The notes under the pieces are model-generated. The model was not told the origin of the DNA, ran no database searches, and saw nothing but the letters and a program-made list of their open reading frames with translations. 27,815 bases of DNA from a virus. Position numbers and translations under genes: made by a program. Shown here one piece after another: positions 4,353 through 27,621 of this stretch (position 1 is the stretch's first letter; each line of letters opens with the position of its first letter). Location: the IMG/VR virus record IMGVR_UViG_3300024301_001681, positions 1-27,815 of that record. One strand, written 5' to 3'.

Positions 4353-6462
4353 CGTATTGGCTCCTTATGAGTTGATACATGCTTCCTTGACTTGTGGAAA
4401 ACATGTTGTAGTGTGTTCTGAAGTTGTCTCTTAATACAACTCCTTCATATATTTTTTCTTCATTGTAAAACTGTTTGTTATTTGTATATGCAGTATCATA
4501 GTACTGCCCAATATCTGTTCCTGATGCGAGAGTTGCAAGCATAGCAGTCTGACCTATAGCCGCTTTGTTGGACTCTTCTTTGTTCTTTTCTGCTATTGCC
4601 TCTGCCATTCTTTCTGCAAGGCTCTTTTCTTCTACTGCTTCCTCTTGCATTGACGGCATTTCCATTGGAATAATTGCAAATCCTATAGGCGCCGCGTCAC
4701 CAAGTGCTAAATTTTCTTGCACATTTTGTTCAGTTGAAGCATCTAAACTATCTTGAGAATCACTTTCTGAACTTTCTGACTGGGATTCCCCTGTCATAGA
4801 GAAAAATAACTCGGTGTCGCTTGAAAAAATGTCTCCTGCTATAGAGTTTGCACTGTTTTCTTCAATAGAACCAGATATTACACTAGAATTTTCACCATTT
4901 TCTGCAATTGATGTAGAATTTTCACCATTTTCTTGCGTTCCTAGCATATTTTGATCGCTATCAGACGAATTTTGCGCTTCATTTTGCGCTTTTTCTTCTA
5001 AATTAGACACCAAATCGTTTGCCATTGTGATTGAAAGTGAAATTGCAAGACTATTATTGCTTCTTGTGGCAGTTGGCTCGCTGATTTCTTCATTTATAGG
5101 GCTTTCTTCTAATTCTTCTAACATTGCAATCTCTTCTTCAGCAAGAATTTCTTCTTCCATGACATCAATCACTTCCAAATCTTCTAAAATTGCAATTTCT
5201 TCTTCAATTGGATCCATCGCTTCTGCTGTTGTGTATATTTCATCGACATATTCATCGGACATGTACATATTTTCTTCAAATGTACTCATGTCTTCTTCCA
5301 TAGGCGTAAATTCTTCTTCAGCAAAAGATGTATCATATAATGTACTTTGTGTATTATATGAATCATTTTCTACATTGTTTAGAATTGTTTCTTCTATTGC
5401 TAATAATGCCGATTCTGTTGCATAGTTAGGGCAAGAGGGTGATGATAGAGGGTCTAACTGGCACTGTTGGTCAAGATATGCTTCAGCGTAGCCAGGACAA
5501 CTACTATCATACAAAGAATCAAGTGAACACTGCTGGTCTAAGTACGCTTGAGCGTAGCCAGGGCATCCTGAATCATATAAAGCATCCGCAGAACATTGTT
5601 GGTCGTAATATGCTTCAGCATAACCAGGACAGCCAGAGTCATATAAAGCATCCGCAGAACATTGTTGATCGTAATACGCCTCTTCATATCCCTCACACGA
5701 TGTATCGTTTAATGGGTTACTACAATCTGGACCAGCGTCTATTGCTCCATACCCTTCATCGTCTCCATACCATGCTCTACCACCGTATAATGTTTGGCTG
5801 TGGAAATCAATATCAAATTCAGTCATGCCGCCTTGAGCATACATCAATTCGTTTACTTCAACATAATTGCCTGAACTGTCAGTTTTTTCTGTGTCACCCG
5901 TAAAACCAATCCATACACTGTGTTGAGTAATGTCAACCTCATCGTATATAAAGTCAAAAGAACCACCACTGTAAAGGTCTACTTGAAAAGTATTTGTATT
6001 AGATGTTCCATATTCTATTACATTATACCAAAGAAAAGATGAGTGTTGATTATCTGTCTTGTAATAGTATCCGGCTTCTCCGCTCCCATCTGGGTCTCTT
6101 AAATCAGTCCAAAGAGGAGCCAGCATGTATGAGAAATAACCGTTTCCACTGGGGTTGTAGCCAGAACAACATCCTTGGTTCCAAGTGTTAGGGTTGCCAA
6201 ACTGGCTAACAGGATCATAGAATAATAGAAATCCGTTACTGGACATCCATGCATCGGTGAATACGCCTCCCATATATGGAAAGCCATGTCCAAGTTGAAC
6301 ATGTGCGGTGCTGTCATCGACACCGGGCATCACTTGTGTCATTCCTTCAGGATTCAACATATCAGCTTGCCCGTATGTAGGCACGGGCAACATGAATGCA
6401 AATGCAAGGCAAAATGCGGCGAATATAATTATTCGACAGAGCGACTTATCTAAATTGTCCAT
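4345..6462 (-). CDS. Large secreted protein: NIDO-like domain, Cys repeats, acidic low-complexity region
   Basis: A 705-residue protein. Residues 1-32 form a signal peptide (basic start, IIFAAFCLAFAFMLP core). Residues about 50-215 resemble the extracellular nidogen (NIDO) domain: HGFPYMGGVFTDAWMSSNGF, LAPLWTDLRDPDGSG, NTFQVDLYSGG, SVWIGFTGD. Residues about 247-345 hold four to five 22-residue Cys repeats of type CSADALYDSGCPGYAEAY. A very acidic stretch (about 365-460) and a Ser/Asn/Glu-rich segment follow, then a more ordered C-terminal 130 residues. The ATG overlaps the TAA of the Asn-rich gene upstream. It is likely an exported surface or adhesion protein, either on the virion or on the infected cell. 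NIDO is inferred by motif resemblance. Confidence 0.85.
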   Translation of the reverse strand: MDNLDKSLCRIIIFAAFCLAFAFMLPVPTYGQADMLNPEGMTQVMPGVDDSTAHVQLGHGFPYMGGVFTDAWMSSNGFLLFYDPVSQFGNPNTWNQGCCSGYNPSGNGYFSYMLAPLWTDLRDPDGSGEAGYYYKTDNQHSSFLWYNVIEYGTSNTNTFQVDLYSGGSFDFIYDEVDITQHSVWIGFTGDTEKTDSSGNYVEVNELMYAQGGMTEFDIDFHSQTLYGGRAWYGDDEGYGAIDAGPDCSNPLNDTSCEGYEEAYYDQQCSADALYDSGCPGYAEAYYDQQCSADALYDSGCPGYAQAYLDQQCSLDSLYDSSCPGYAEAYLDQQCQLDPLSSPSCPNYATESALLAIEETILNNVENDSYNTQSTLYDTSFAEEEFTPMEEDMSTFEENMYMSDEYVDEIYTTAEAMDPIEEEIAILEDLEVIDVMEEEILAEEEIAMLEELEESPINEEISEPTATRSNNSLAISLSITMANDLVSNLEEKAQNEAQNSSDSDQNMLGTQENGENSTSIAENGENSSVISGSIEENSANSIAGDIFSSDTELFFSMTGESQSESSESDSQDSLDASTEQNVQENLALGDAAPIGFAIIPMEMPSMQEEAVEEKSLAERMAEAIAEKNKEESNKAAIGQTAMLATLASGTDIGQYYDTAYTNNKQFYNEEKIYEGVVLRDNFRTHYNMFSTSQGSMYQLIRSQYDD
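5430..5724 (-). repeat. Tandem 66-bp coding repeat (22-residue Cys repeat)
   Basis: Four to five copies of a 66-bp unit encode C-x9-C-P-G-Y-x-x-A-Y-x-D-Q-Q modules. Two neighbouring copies are nearly identical at the DNA level: TCATATAAAGCATCCGC begins at 5573 and again at 5639, exactly 66 bases apart. The outer copies have diverged. Two Cys per unit in an exported protein suggests disulfide-stabilised repeats. Confidence 0.9.
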
Positions 6463-7892: not shown

Positions 7893-8195
7893 TTGAAGAG
7901 AAAAACTTTAACAGTCATGCTTATGTCAATATTTTTCTGGGCATGGCCCGTAAGACTTATAACTAAAAAGAACAACTGCTATTTCTGGACACTGGAGCAA
8001 CTCATAATGCACGGCGGCAGTGCAGAGTGGTATCCATCTAAACGATGGGCTGGTTATCATGTAGTTTGGGTAAGACCTGATGGGCAAAAGTTTGAATATA
8101 CACTTCCACGAATGGCTAAAAATACTCCATGGTGGGGACTTTTGTTTTATACTGGTGAAGTTAGACGCTTCAGGTCCTTCAGGAAAGACCAATGA
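7893..8195 (+). CDS. Hypothetical protein, N-terminal hydrophobic segment
   Basis: A 100-residue frame read from TTG 7893, about 10 bases after AAGGAG. The N-terminus is hydrophobic after a short basic start (KRKTLTVMLMSIFFWAWPVRL), giving a membrane anchor or signal-like segment. The rest is rich in Trp and aromatic residues (AEWYPSKRWAGYHVVWVRPDG). An ATG at 7886 sits closer to the ribosome binding site but opens another frame of only 26 codons, so start choice is unsettled. It joins the desaturase gene by an ATGA overlap, suggesting a membrane-linked accessory. Unknown function. Confidence 0.6.
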   Translation: MKRKTLTVMLMSIFFWAWPVRLITKKNNCYFWTLEQLIMHGGSAEWYPSKRWAGYHVVWVRPDGQKFEYTLPRMAKNTPWWGLLFYTGEVRRFRSFRKDQ

Positions 8196-8899
8196 ATCTA
8201 CCTTACTATCTTTTAGCTGGTCAGTTAGTTGCTATGACCAGTGTTTTCACAATGATACCCTATGCGACTCCTTTTGAGTGGCTTATAACTCTTATTGTCT
8301 ATTTTTGTATTATGACATTTGGCATCTCAATGGGATATCATAGATATTTTTCTCATAAGATGTTCAAGTGTCCTGTTTGGTTTGAATATGTTATGTTGTT
8401 TTTTGCACATCTAATGATGGTAGGTCCTGTAATTGTTTGGGTTGCGAATCATAGGCAACATCATAGATTTACTGACACAGAAAATGATCCACATTCACCT
8501 AAACATAAAGGATATTTTTATTCTTACTTCTTACAAGTTATAACGAAGATAGAGTTTAAATATGTTAGAGACTTGTTAAAAGTAAATAGATATAGAATGC
8601 AAGTTAAATACTACTGGCATGTACTGTTTGCTTGGGCAGGCGTTTTACTATTAATTGACCCTTTTGCAATCGTTTATGCTTGGCTAGCACCTGCAGGTCT
8701 TGCAAAGATTATAGGATCGCTTGTATTTTCTTACTCGCATCGTAGTGGTGAACCTCACGATGACTGGTTAGTGGGAATGCTTACATTTGGCGAAGGCTTT
8801 CATAGACAACACCATGACAAACCTTCTAAAGTAGTTTGGCACAATCATGACATAACAGGAATGATGATAAAGGCAATAGACAGAAATGTTAAAACATAA
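8192..8899 (+). CDS. Fatty acid (acyl-CoA type) desaturase
   Basis: A 235-residue integral membrane di-iron desaturase that would introduce a double bond into an acyl chain. All three histidine boxes are present: H50-RYFS-H55, H87-RQ-HH91 and H204-RQ-HH208 in GEGFHRQHHD. Hydrophobic segments at about 8-45, 63-84 and 140-180 match the delta-9 acyl-CoA/acyl-lipid desaturase topology. The protein is shorter than cellular members (usually about 280-320), mostly through short termini. It overlaps the preceding gene (ATGA) and the following oxygenase, so it is part of the tailoring operon. It may change membrane fluidity in the infected cell, or desaturate an acyl chain of the cassette's product. 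It needs host electron donors. Confidence 0.92.
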   Translation: MNLPYYLLAGQLVAMTSVFTMIPYATPFEWLITLIVYFCIMTFGISMGYHRYFSHKMFKCPVWFEYVMLFFAHLMMVGPVIVWVANHRQHHRFTDTENDPHSPKHKGYFYSYFLQVITKIEFKYVRDLLKVNRYRMQVKYYWHVLFAWAGVLLLIDPFAIVYAWLAPAGLAKIIGSLVFSYSHRSGEPHDDWLVGMLTFGEGFHRQHHDKPSKVVWHNHDITGMMIKAIDRNVKT

Positions 8900-23899: not shown

Positions 23900-24559
23900 A
23901 TGTTTAAACATGTGAAAGAAATAGAAGACTTTGCAACCGATAAGACCGCTCCAGATGGCAGTAGAAAGTACTTTACTGAGTCTGGGGCGGCTTATCCTTC
24001 TGTCACTACAGTTTTGGGATACCAAAGCAAAGATTCAATCCTACAATGGCGAAAAAGAGTTGGTGAAGAAGAAGCTAACAAAATAAGTCGCCAAGCATCT
24101 ACCCGCGGCACAAAGATTCACTTGCTGTGTGAAAACTATCTCGACAATGAAGATGTCGATACAAGCAAACTGTCAATGCTTGATAAAATTATGTGGCAGT
24201 CTTTTCAACCGATTTTAAATCGTATTGATAACATACATGCACAAGAGATTGCGTTATACAGCGACCATCTAAGACTTGCTGGTCGAGTTGATTGCATAGC
24301 AGAGTTTGACGGTAAGTTAAGTATCATTGACTTCAAGACTTCAAGAAAGCCTAAGAAAAAAGAGTGGATTACAAACTACTTTGCCCAAGCGGCTGCATAT
24401 TCTATCATGTATGAAGAAAGAACTGGAACTCCTATAAATAGGTCTGTAATTTTAATTGCAGTAGAGGATGAAGAGCCGCAAGTCTTTATTGATAAACGAG
24501 ATAATTATGTTCATCATTTATTACATGCAAGAGACTTGTATGAATGTGACCACAAATGA
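23900..24559 (+). CDS. PD-(D/E)XK exonuclease (RecB/Cas4 type)
   Basis: A 219-residue RecB-family nuclease. Motifs occur in order: His74 (RGTKIHLLCE), Asp131 (LAGRVDCIAEF), Asp144-Phe-Lys146 (IIDFKTSRKP) and the QAAAY motif at 163-167 typical of RecB and Cas4 nucleases. N-terminal YPSVTTVLGYQSK is the common lead-in of phage single-domain members. No Cys cluster of the Cas4 kind is visible. It likely trims DNA ends in recombination or replication, or degrades host DNA. It is expressed from its own consensus promoter with almost no leader, and overlaps the radical SAM gene (ATGA). Confidence 0.88.
   Translation: MFKHVKEIEDFATDKTAPDGSRKYFTESGAAYPSVTTVLGYQSKDSILQWRKRVGEEEANKISRQASTRGTKIHLLCENYLDNEDVDTSKLSMLDKIMWQSFQPILNRIDNIHAQEIALYSDHLRLAGRVDCIAEFDGKLSIIDFKTSRKPKKKEWITNYFAQAAAYSIMYEERTGTPINRSVILIAVEDEEPQVFIDKRDNYVHHLLHARDLYECDHK
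24433..24440 (+). promoter_or_regulatory. Candidate late-type promoter before the radical SAM/SPASM gene
   Basis: An exact TATAAATA inside the exonuclease gene, about 115 bases upstream of the radical SAM ATG. Orientation and distance are suitable, but it is a bare 8-mer in AT-rich coding DNA. Confidence 0.25.
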
Positions 24560-25587
24560 AAAAACCAAACTTTTTAACAATAGAACCCACTTCTCAGTGT
24601 AATGCCAGATGTCCACAGTGCCCTAGAACACACGATACTACACTTGAGACTGATCCGCATCTTGTAATAGATGAGTGGTCAGCGGAAGAATTAAGAAATT
24701 TTGTAAATTCTCCTTGGTGCAGTAATATTATTTCCGCACATATTAACGGCAACTATGGCGATATAGTAATGCACTCACAACCAAAAGAACTTATTGAGGT
24801 TTTGCTGGATAAAGATATCTATAGTATCCTCATAAGCACAAACGGAGCCGGTTTGCACAAAACTTTTTGGTCATGGCTAGGCTCACAAAAAAATGTATCT
24901 GTAGAATTCGCTATAGAAGGTATCGACCAAAAAACCCACGAAATGTATAGAAGAAAAACACGGCTTGATGTTATTTTGAAAAATGCTAAAGCATTTATTG
25001 AGGCAGGCGGTAAAGCGGTATGGTATATGACACTATTTCGTCATAATTATAATCAACTTGACGCGGCTAAAAAAATGGCAGAGGAGTATGGGTTTAAAGA
25101 ATTCAAACATAGAAACTCAGAAAGATTTGTATTTAAAGACCTCATTGTATCAGACGGCGGGTACAGATTAGAACCTGCACCTGGAGTTCCTATAGGTATC
25201 GATGAATCTGATGATTTAGATAATTGGTATCATAATCCGCCGGTTGCTTCTAAACACATGTCTTTGTGGGAAGACATGTTAGTCAAAAGAGAAGGTAAGA
25301 TAAATTGTCATGCAATCAATAGAGAAAATCATTTGCACAACATATATCTCTCTGCTGATAAAAAACTTTGGCCCTGTTGTTTCATTCCTAATGAAGTTGA
25401 TTTAGGATACAAGATAGGACAAATGAATGATTGGATTAGACGCTTTTATGTCGAGCGAGGGTTAGATAGAAACTTTAACAGCCTATTGCTTCACACACCC
25501 GAAGAAATCATGAAAACTGGATTTCTTGAAGAAGTTATTAAGTGGGATATGGATGTATGTTACCAAAACTGTGCAGGATGTGCTTGA
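24556..25587 (+). CDS. Radical SAM/SPASM-type protein
   Basis: A 343-residue radical SAM enzyme with the cluster motif right at the N-terminus: Cys15-x3-Cys19-x2-Cys22 (SQCNARCPQCPRT). The C-terminal Cys set (Cys251, Cys274, Cys275, then Cys335, Cys339, Cys342 in CYQNCAGCA) fits a SPASM/twitch auxiliary cluster domain. There is no canonical GGE motif; the equivalent position reads HINGNYGD. SPASM proteins modify peptides or sugars and small molecules. It overlaps the exonuclease gene by ATGA, and its TGA lies inside the -35 box of the tmRNA promoter. Substrate unknown. Confidence 0.87.
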   Translation: MKKPNFLTIEPTSQCNARCPQCPRTHDTTLETDPHLVIDEWSAEELRNFVNSPWCSNIISAHINGNYGDIVMHSQPKELIEVLLDKDIYSILISTNGAGLHKTFWSWLGSQKNVSVEFAIEGIDQKTHEMYRRKTRLDVILKNAKAFIEAGGKAVWYMTLFRHNYNQLDAAKKMAEEYGFKEFKHRNSERFVFKDLIVSDGGYRLEPAPGVPIGIDESDDLDNWYHNPPVASKHMSLWEDMLVKREGKINCHAINRENHLHNIYLSADKKLWPCCFIPNEVDLGYKIGQMNDWIRRFYVERGLDRNFNSLLLHTPEEIMKTGFLEEVIKWDMDVCYQNCAGCA

Positions 25588-25617
25588 CAAATGTGTTTAA
25601 AGGATATATTATAAATA
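25584..25617 (+). promoter_or_regulatory. Overlapping sigma70-type and late-type promoters of the tmRNA gene
   Basis: TTGACA at 25584-25589, a 17-base spacer and TATTAT at 25607-25612 form a near-consensus host-type promoter with a start near 25619. An exact TATAAATA at 25610-25617 overlaps the -10 box and predicts a start near 25623. Both place the start at the 5' edge of the tmRNA, so the gene could be read early and late. Confidence 0.75.
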
Positions 25618-25684
25618 ATGTATCAGTTGATGAAGCGGACTGAAAGATTGTAGGACGCGGGTGCAATTCCCGCCAGCTCCACCA

Positions 25685-25744
25685 AAAGCATACTAGGCAC
25701 GGGCGTACAGTGTCGAAAATAAGACTTCCTAGTGTGCTTTTGAT
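25685..25744 (+). other. Intervening segment of the permuted pre-tmRNA
   Basis: These 60 bases separate the encoded CCA end from the GGGG start. AAAGCATACTAGG (25685-25697) pairs with CCTAGTGTGCTTT (25728-25740) over 13 bp with one G-U, leaving a 30-base loop. The stem nearly extends the acceptor stem, so processing enzymes (RNase P at the 5' GGGG, a 3' nuclease at CCA) would release the loop. Confidence 0.88.
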
Positions 25745-25820
25745 GGGGCTGAACAGGTTCGACTGCGATTGTATAGGACAAGTGGAGACTGATTGACTGG
25801 CAAAGTGCCATGTAATAACT

Positions 25821-25853
25821 GCCAACGATGAGGCATATGCTCTAGCCGCTTAA
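25821..25853 (+). other. tmRNA tag reading frame
   Basis: GCC resume codon followed by codons giving ANDEAYALAA and then TAA. E. coli's tag is ANDENYALAA, so the ending recognised by ClpXP and the N-terminal AND segment near the SspB site are kept. The bases before the resume codon, TAATAACT, occupy the position of the E. coli resume-setting sequence. Confidence 0.93.
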
Positions 25854-25917
25854 GGTTAGACGGGGTATGGGTTCCACCTTGTTATCAAACGGGCCTGTTT
25901 TAGCCTAAGGAGGTTTT

Positions 25918-26484
25918 ATGAGAATTATTTCATACATACTAACTTTAGCATTAGGGTTCGTAACAGGAACTTTTTTGTTTGAGCAAGAACCCATTATTGA
26001 ATCAGATAGCATTGTTGTTGATTTTGAACATACCCAGCCTGAAATAATAATCCCCGCATTAGACAGTGAAATAATTTGTTTAGCAAAAAACATTTACTTT
26101 GAGGCACGGGGCGAAAGTGTTTTTGGAAAAGTAGCAGTTGCTAGTGTTACTCTCAATCGAGTAGAAAGTCCTAATTTTCCAGACACTATTTGCGGTGTTG
26201 TATATCAAGCAAAATTAAGTCAATGGCATCTTGAACAAGGTAGAGAAGTTCCTCTCTTAAATCAGTGCCAGTTTAGTTGGTATTGCGATGGTAAGTCTGA
26301 TGAGATATATGACCATAAAACCTATGAAAGCATTTACAAGTTAGCTGAACTTGTATATAATATGGATATAGATGTTACTGATGGAGCTACACATTATCAT
26401 GCGGATTATGTTGAACCTAACTGGTCTAAAAGTATGCCAATGGTAGCAGTTGTAGATACACACATTTTTTATAAGATGAAATAA
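25918..26484 (+). CDS. SleB-type cell wall hydrolase (probable endolysin)
   Basis: A 188-residue protein. AAGGAGG ending 4 bases before the ATG is the strongest ribosome binding site seen here. Residues 1-21 are hydrophobic (MRIISYILTLALGFVTGTFL), a signal anchor. The catalytic domain from about 50 begins SEIICLAKNIYFEARGES with Glu62 and continues GKVAVASVTLNRVESPNFPDTICGVV and QCQFSWYCDGKSDE, then THYHADYVEPNWS. This is the SleB/hydrolase-2 pattern of peptidoglycan-cleaving lytic transglycosylase-like enzymes. It would lyse the host cell wall. The signal anchor suggests Sec export and delayed release, a SAR-type or periplasmic lysin. Confidence 0.9.
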   Translation: MRIISYILTLALGFVTGTFLFEQEPIIESDSIVVDFEHTQPEIIIPALDSEIICLAKNIYFEARGESVFGKVAVASVTLNRVESPNFPDTICGVVYQAKLSQWHLEQGREVPLLNQCQFSWYCDGKSDEIYDHKTYESIYKLAELVYNMDIDVTDGATHYHADYVEPNWSKSMPMVAVVDTHIFYKMK

Positions 26485-26486
26485 TT

Positions 26487-27338
26487 ATGCTACAGATGTC
26501 TCATTATGTTGTTACCGGTGGGTGTGGATTTATAGGATCTCATTTAGTTGAGGCTCTGTTAGCCATGGAATGTTGTGTAACTGTTGTTGATGACAAACGA
26601 AATGGAAAGCATGTAATAGATCACCCCTTTGTGCAGTATTTGCATTGTGCGGTAGAAGATGTTAATATCGCAACTGATACCCCTATTGATGGAATAATAC
26701 ATTTAGCAAATACTCCTAGAGTCCGTCTTTCTATGGAAGACCCTAAAGATGCTATTTTAAACAACATAGTTCCTACCGTGGCTGTTTGTGAATGGGCAAG
26801 AGAGTATAAGTGTCCATTATATTTTGCACAATCTTCAAGTAGACTTTCTTCAAGTGTCTACTCAAATCCATATACATTTGGAAAAACAATAGCAGAAGAG
26901 AATATAAAACTGTATAAAAAATTGTGGGGTATAAAAAGTCATTTGTTATATTTTTATAATGTGTATGGTCCTAGAGAAGCAGACTATGGAGAACATAGTA
27001 CTGTAATCAGGAGTTTTAAAAATCAAATATTGAAAAATGAACCACTAAGAATATATGGAAGTGGAAGAAAGTCAAGAGATTTTACTTTTGTTTCAGATGC
27101 TATAGCGGGTATAGTTAAATTGCTTTTGCTTACTCCCTCAAAGCGTCCTGATTATGTCATGTTGGGTAAGGGCGATCCTAAAACTATTCTTGAAATTGCA
27201 AAAGCGTTTGACCACCCTTACATTCATGAATTTGATAAACCCGGTGAAGCAGAAAAAACTTTTTGTGACAAACCATTCATCGAAGGAAAATTTGATGTGA
27301 TAGATTATATTAAAAAATGGAAAAAATTAAATGCATAA
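26487..27338 (+). CDS. NAD-dependent sugar epimerase/dehydratase, second copy
   Basis: A 283-residue extended SDR enzyme. The NAD loop is TGGCGFIGSHL (10-20), the catalytic residues are Ser117/118 and Tyr129-x3-Lys133 (NPYTFGKTIAEEN), and YNVYGPREADYGEHSTVI is the substrate loop. It is shorter than typical members (about 310-330). Starts at 26487 and 26496 are possible; no strong ribosome binding site separates them. It is only distantly similar to the epimerase at 12081, and lies outside the sugar cassette, between the lysin and gp33. It overlaps the gp33 gene by 8 bases. Substrate unknown. Confidence 0.87.
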   Translation: MLQMSHYVVTGGCGFIGSHLVEALLAMECCVTVVDDKRNGKHVIDHPFVQYLHCAVEDVNIATDTPIDGIIHLANTPRVRLSMEDPKDAILNNIVPTVAVCEWAREYKCPLYFAQSSSRLSSSVYSNPYTFGKTIAEENIKLYKKLWGIKSHLLYFYNVYGPREADYGEHSTVIRSFKNQILKNEPLRIYGSGRKSRDFTFVSDAIAGIVKLLLLTPSKRPDYVMLGKGDPKTILEIAKAFDHPYIHEFDKPGEAEKTFCDKPFIEGKFDVIDYIKKWKKLNA

Positions 27339-27621
27339 GTTAGTAGTAGATAATGACTTAACTGATAAGTCAAAAGTGACCGATGTGTTTCTTATAACGA
27401 AACAATTCAAAACACAGGTTGAGTTTTCTCAGCATATTGAAAAAAAAGCACACAAGACAAATAGTAGTCTAATTGACATTTTGGTTGAATATTGTGTAAA
27501 GCAAGAGATTGAAATTGAATCGGTCAAAAAACTAGTCACGCCTTCTCTTAAAGAAAAAATTAAGGTGGAGGCAGAATCTCTTAACTTGATGAAAGAAAAA
27601 ACAGGTAAACTCCCCTTTTAA
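27331..27621 (+). CDS. 33: T4 gp33-like late-transcription co-activator
   Basis: A 96-residue protein. The pattern FSQHIEKKAHKTNSSLIDIL, then VEYCVKQEIEIESVKKLVTP, then LKEKIKVEAESLNLMKE, ending GKLPF, resembles the late promoter accessory protein of marine T4-like phages, which links RNA polymerase to the sliding clamp at TATAAATA promoters. The next gene resembles gp59, and genes 33 and 59 are neighbours in T4, which supports the call. T4 gp33 is slightly longer (about 112 residues). It fits the late-type promoter motifs in the window. No strong ribosome binding site; it overlaps the epimerase gene. Confidence 0.8.
   Translation: MHKLVVDNDLTDKSKVTDVFLITKQFKTQVEFSQHIEKKAHKTNSSLIDILVEYCVKQEIEIESVKKLVTPSLKEKIKVEAESLNLMKEKTGKLPF

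Follow-up and report, generated by a model that had tools for sequence, protein, structure and literature searches.

T4-like phages with a circularly permuted tmRNA gene in two pieces at a fixed genomic slot, and its probable role in ribosome rescue during infection

The 27,815-base IMG/VR virus record analyzed here (the window), which is probably a fragment, encodes a circularly permuted, two-piece tmRNA at approximately positions 25620-25900 of the plus strand, as identified using both Rfam (cmscan) and ARAGORN (Table 1). From sequence comparison, we consider it highly probable that this is a functional, phage-resident permuted ssrA gene that has long been kept in one genomic slot and sustains ribosome rescue in the course of infection. 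The RF04321 (tmRNA_permuted) model matches positions 25622-25853 (+), scoring 98.8 bits (cut-off 47; E-value 2.3e-18); RF01850 (beta_tmRNA) matches positions 25583-25918 with 88.6 bits, barely above its cut-off of 84; and RF01849 (alpha_tmRNA), the model proposed for the search in an earlier note on this sequence, yields a lower score of 59 bits, also above its cut-off (50). With three Rfam models exceeding their cut-offs, the outcome of no match to any tmRNA model is excluded. ARAGORN independently reports a permuted tmRNA with the tag ANDEAYALAA*.

The earlier note, made from the letters alone, had placed a phage-borne permuted tmRNA gene at 25621-25895, which is correct within a few bases, and most of the anatomy that it described holds. 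The permuted order agrees with the RF04321 match and the ARAGORN call, the terminal CCA is indeed encoded, the acceptor stem comprises 7 bp with two-sided changes among relatives, the helix predicted between the pieces is represented by two cross-piece helices, and the tag frame runs cleanly from GCC to TAA. The phage assignment is likewise borne out; this is a virus record with T4-type core genes. In the predicted precursor fold, the spacer hairpin stacks on the acceptor stem.

Table 1. Features of the window and of the tmRNA genes of cultured relatives (paired strands are joined by "with")
Feature	Position	Strand	Remarks
PDDEXK exonuclease (PF12705, phrog_298)	23900-24559	+	upstream border of the slot
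Radical SAM protein	24556-25587	+	directly 5' of the tmRNA; end overlaps the -35 box
Composite promoter	25584-25617	+	sigma-70 elements overlapping a T4-type late motif
-35 box TTGACA	25584-25589	+	followed by 17 nt and TATTAT (25607-25612)
TATAAATA, T4-type late promoter consensus	25610-25617	+	overlaps TATTAT
Acceptor piece	~25622-25684	+	ends in encoded CCA (25682-25684), preceded by A25681
Acceptor piece, 5' strands of cross-piece helices	25622-25628, 25646-25652	+	pair with 25787-25793 and 25764-25770, respectively
T arm	25657-25661 with 25669-25673	+	within the acceptor piece
Acceptor stem, 3' strand	25674-25680	+	7-bp stem
Intervening spacer	25685-25744	+	60 nt
Spacer hairpin	25684-25697 with 25728-25741	+	14 bp, starting at A25684
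Coding piece	25745-25898	+	from G25745; 3' end approximate
Acceptor stem, 5' strand GGGGCTG, then D-like loop	start of coding piece	+	
Coding piece, strands of cross-piece helices	25764-25770, 25787-25793	+	
Coding-piece hairpin	25798-25810	+	
Tag reading frame	25821-25853	+	resume codon GCC; TAA ends at 25853; peptide ANDEAYALAA
3' pseudoknot	25862-25898	+	within the coding piece
3' pseudoknot helix GGGGU/ACCUU	25862-25866 with 25876-25880	+	
3' pseudoknot helix AUGGGUUC/GGGCCUGU	25867-25874 with 25891-25898	+	
Cell wall hydrolase / endolysin-like (PF07486, phrog_938)	25918-26484	+	starts ~20 nt past the tmRNA
Late-transcription coactivator, T4 gp33-like (PF16805, phrog_254)	27331-27621	+	downstream border of the slot
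Melnitz ssrA (Methylophilales phage)	MZ577097, 45984-46436		permuted two-piece
Mosig tmRNA (Pelagibacter phage)	MT647606, 111467-111805		tag GEDNFALAA
HTVC008M tmRNA (Pelagibacter phage)	NC_020484, 145120-145461 (= L143 9121-9462)		tag ANFNEYALAA; no annotated feature in the record

The fold of the window tmRNA is markedly stable, with a minimum free energy z-score of -3.66 and none of 200 shuffles as low. Across nine phage sequences, the window among them, 96.8% of the cells form standard pairs, and 13 pairs show two-sided change compared to a mean of 5.5 in shuffled data and none of 500 shuffles as high; because the structure model was drawn from the window itself and the compared sequences are related, these shuffles do not translate into a probability, and slid registers, in which 0 to 3 such pairs are found, serve as the control for relatedness. 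In this set, the two cross-piece helices are paired in 100% and 96.8% of the cells, two-sided swaps turn up in the acceptor stem (G-C to C-G), the T arm (C-G to G-C) and the pseudoknot (U-A to C-G), among others, and 9 pairs of the spacer hairpin show two-sided change. The third pair of the acceptor stem (G3-U70) is G-U in all nine sequences; a G-U pair at this position is the alanine identity signal of alanine tRNAs, and the window molecule combines it with the CCA end.

Comparison of the window with the related locus L003 reveals only 4 differences in the 209 positions of the mature pieces, two of which make up one compensated T-arm pair; in the adjacent radical SAM gene, 19 of the 104 fourfold sites differ. 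The spacer cannot be aligned between the two, and its sequence is wholly different in L003 and L005, with the hairpin retained. This conservation argues for long purifying selection on the tmRNA.

The gene order in the window is PhoH, PDDEXK exonuclease, radical SAM, tmRNA, endolysin-like hydrolase, epimerase and gp33, and the combination of gp33 (PF16805), PhoH and the PDDEXK exonuclease identifies this marine phage as T4-like (Kyanoviridae-like). The window tmRNA had no blastn match in the phage collection, which, for a search of this type, does not imply absence of homologues; these were found by synteny. The slot was surveyed in the 80 IMG/VR loci whose PDDEXK genes ranked as closest, which are the top 80 of a larger number and include a few near-duplicates; 45 of them carry gp33 downstream of PDDEXK, and in 38 of these 45 contigs a permuted tmRNA, detected by ARAGORN or Rfam, lies between the two genes. 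No standard-form tmRNA was seen in the 45 slots, and seven lack a tmRNA detectable by either method, so that the gene is dispensable. The tmRNAs of Melnitz, Mosig and HTVC008M, annotated in the first two, likewise lie between PDDEXK and gp33; in these three phages and in the relative L022, gp59-like and gp32 genes come next. Elsewhere in the window (8192-8899), an ORF is reminiscent, on visual inspection, of a fatty acid desaturase, an unusual cargo; its only match is a weak one, to a PHROG whose function is not assigned.

In five relatives (L002, L003, L005, L006 and L016), a small ORF (MSNPYELR...) flanked by the repeat GGTATGGGYTCCACC...AACGGGCC is located between the tmRNA and the hydrolase. 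The window (25860-25917) and L007 have no such ORF, and their last tmRNA arm is identical to the downstream repeat copy of L006, a pattern that would fit loss of the ORF via recombination between the repeats. The last arm of the window pseudoknot looks recombinant, with several G-U wobbles among its pairs following the apparent recombination.

Two-piece tmRNAs are not new to phages, and the window tmRNA is a further member of this known group. Buchholz et al. 2022 described a two-piece tmRNA in the OM43 phage Melnitz and in 17 of the 47 contigs clustering with it, and found that 53 of 133 distinct phage tmRNA structures were two-piece, 50 of these 53 being marine or aquatic (PMC9004378). Together with the slot survey (38 of 45 contigs from the best 80 loci), these data do not support the view that a tmRNA gene, which the earlier note held to be uncommon in phages, is unusual for this group. 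The same authors also proposed that such tmRNAs function in recycling and tagging and have an early promoter (PMC9004378); what is added here is the slot frequency, the composite promoter and the analysis of conservation, none of which we came across in a limited literature search.

Melnitz shares with the window the permuted two-piece gene, the T4-like phage background, the PDDEXK-gp33 slot and a TTGACA-N17-TATAAATA promoter, but its tmRNA fits best to the alpha model (106.7 bits) and has a longer tag, ANDNYVPVDYALAA. In Melnitz, a glutamine riboswitch aptamer overlaps the annotated 3' part of ssrA, whereas none was found in the window, and the radical SAM and endolysin-like genes flank the window copy, not that of Melnitz. 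Mosig and HTVC008M also have a permuted gene in the slot before gp33, but differ from the window in their tags, in a best fit to the alpha model and in that no composite promoter was found. In Mosig, an Rfam manA RNA motif is present upstream of genes (L142 5165-5372). The permuted tmRNAs of bacteria (RF01850 betas, and RF01849 alphas including SAR11) resemble the window in gene order, G-U pair in the acceptor stem, tag and 3' pseudoknot. However, a true beta reaches 251.5 bits on the beta model, far above the window, and the captured SAR11 spacers are mostly 11-12 nt long in contrast to the 60 nt in the window.

At the 5' end of the tmRNA, the composite promoter, which is conserved in relatives, takes the form TTGAC-N17/20-TATAAATA, and its sigma-70 elements in the window match the consensus in 11 of 12 positions. 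We surveyed the window record, Melnitz, Mosig, HTVC008M, L067 and the 80 top-ranking loci of the slot survey for TTGAC-N(17-22)-TATAAATA and found 16 occurrences, 15 of which precede a tmRNA (12 flagged by script plus L266, L267 and L270, whose tmRNAs start with AGAC where the script tested GGAC); the only one located away from a tmRNA among the surveyed loci is TTGAC-N20-TATAAATA before Melnitz gp32 (L141 10660). The pattern did not occur in letter-shuffled sequence. Taken alone, the count of TATAAATA is unconvincing as promoter evidence, with 7 copies in the window against 3.4 expected and as many in 4 of 100 shuffles; the motif becomes convincing only through its constant position and the TTGAC that accompanies it.

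The overlap of a sigma-70 element with a T4-type late element suggests that the window tmRNA is expressed throughout infection. Such dual-phase expression is not universal, since L003-L005 retain TTGACA and the -10 box but have lost TATAAATA, and Mosig and HTVC008M show neither these sigma-70 elements nor TATAAATA. No terminator-like site was found between the window tmRNA and the next gene. In L006, the 60 bp at 5003-5062 duplicate the stretch that lies upstream of the tmRNA, promoter included, and stand before an inserted lipoprotein-like ORF.

These features are best explained by the following scheme. As read from the sequence and its comparison, a single predicted transcription unit begins with the acceptor piece, driven by the composite promoter; in the precursor, the halves of the acceptor stem pair and the spacer forms its hairpin, the CCA is already encoded, and the coding piece supplies a resume codon for alanine and the tag with its ALAA end. 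By analogy with bacterial two-piece tmRNAs, host RNase P and 3' nucleases would remove the spacer, leaving two molecules held together by the acceptor stem and the cross-piece helices; the host alanyl-tRNA synthetase would charge the product via G3-U70; and host SmpB would deliver it to stalled ribosomes, resulting in their release and in a proteolysis tag on the broken protein. No SmpB gene was noticed within the 27.8-kb fragment, so that SmpB would have to be provided by the host. The benefit to the phage could be that ribosome rescue is upheld after host transcription shut-off and during mRNA decay, which would make ribosomes and amino acids available for the synthesis of late proteins. Most likely, then, the phage keeps the tmRNA to keep host SmpB-dependent ribosome rescue running during infection. 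A broader proposal, which we put forward only tentatively, is that in a large aquatic T4-like lineage ssrA is nearly a core gene, kept at one set position next to the late-transcription switch gp33, that in many members the dual sigma-70/late promoter is nearly exclusive to the tmRNA, and that rescue would be under phage control during the entire infection.

A working tmRNA could also be maintained mainly because it tags particular host or phage proteins for proteolysis and thereby recycles amino acids, as put forward by Buchholz et al. 2022 (PMC9004378), although we consider it unlikely that this, and not ribosome rescue, is the main gain. All 42 tags called by ARAGORN in the slot survey (best 80 loci of more) end in L/I/V-A-A, in keeping with a functional tmRNA, although this uniform end is not independent evidence because ARAGORN may favour AA-ending tags. 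The window tag and 33 of these 42 end in ALAA, which speaks for tagging, but upstream of the AA end the tags are highly variable. Tagging and rescue come from one reaction and therefore cannot be separated by sequence.

Still less probable is that the RNA is primarily a decoy for host SmpB, dampening host trans-translation. Such a role has been proposed for the tmRNA of mycobacteriophage DS6A, which consists of the tRNA-like domain only, and a molecule of this kind is reported to inhibit tmRNA, perhaps via SmpB titration (PMC4131195, PMC11915505). A decoy, however, would need none of the resume codon, tag frame, stop and 3' pseudoknot that are retained among the relatives of the window tmRNA.

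With respect to origin, the earlier note pointed to alphaproteobacteria and to SAR11 for comparison; an affinity of this kind is not supported by the present data. The window scores higher with the beta model than with the alpha model, and this beta score exceeds that of any of the 298 other Pseudomonadota genomes sampled (best 73.3). In the trees, whose deep nodes are weakly supported and whose sampling was limited (no OM43 (Methylophilales) sequence was recognized among the few betas, and the extraction pattern missed many SAR11 loci), the window tmRNA belongs to a phage lineage of its own, outside the sampled SAR11 and beta tmRNAs. Given that this lineage is nested in neither group, and that the nearest same-slot isolates infect either SAR11 (Mosig, HTVC008M) or OM43 (Melnitz), the permuted order, which had been regarded as the best host clue, is a weak one and does not settle the host. 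Covariance scores were rejected for host assignment as well, because close relatives flip (L024 is best with beta, L022 with alpha), and so was the tree with its weak deep nodes.

Capture from a host, suggested in the earlier note, finds no support as a recent event in this separate phage lineage, and we conclude that the gene has resided in phages for a long time, in one slot of a T4-like lineage. Host ssrA is a common integration site of prophages, and a pattern search of viral contigs yielded many tmRNA-bearing contigs that could be prophages or integration-site fragments, but it is highly improbable that the window gene stems from recent host capture or is left over from an integration site, with no function in the phage, considering that it is intact and covaries across divergent relatives, occupies a fixed slot in T4-like phages, sits on a long separate branch and has accumulated almost no substitutions in the mature pieces.

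These observations caution against the use of gene permutation as a host marker. The fixed slot, the recurrent composite promoter and the sustained purifying selection speak for ribosome rescue as a function under selection in these phages, and the cultured relatives Melnitz, Mosig and HTVC008M offer a clear handle for testing this role.
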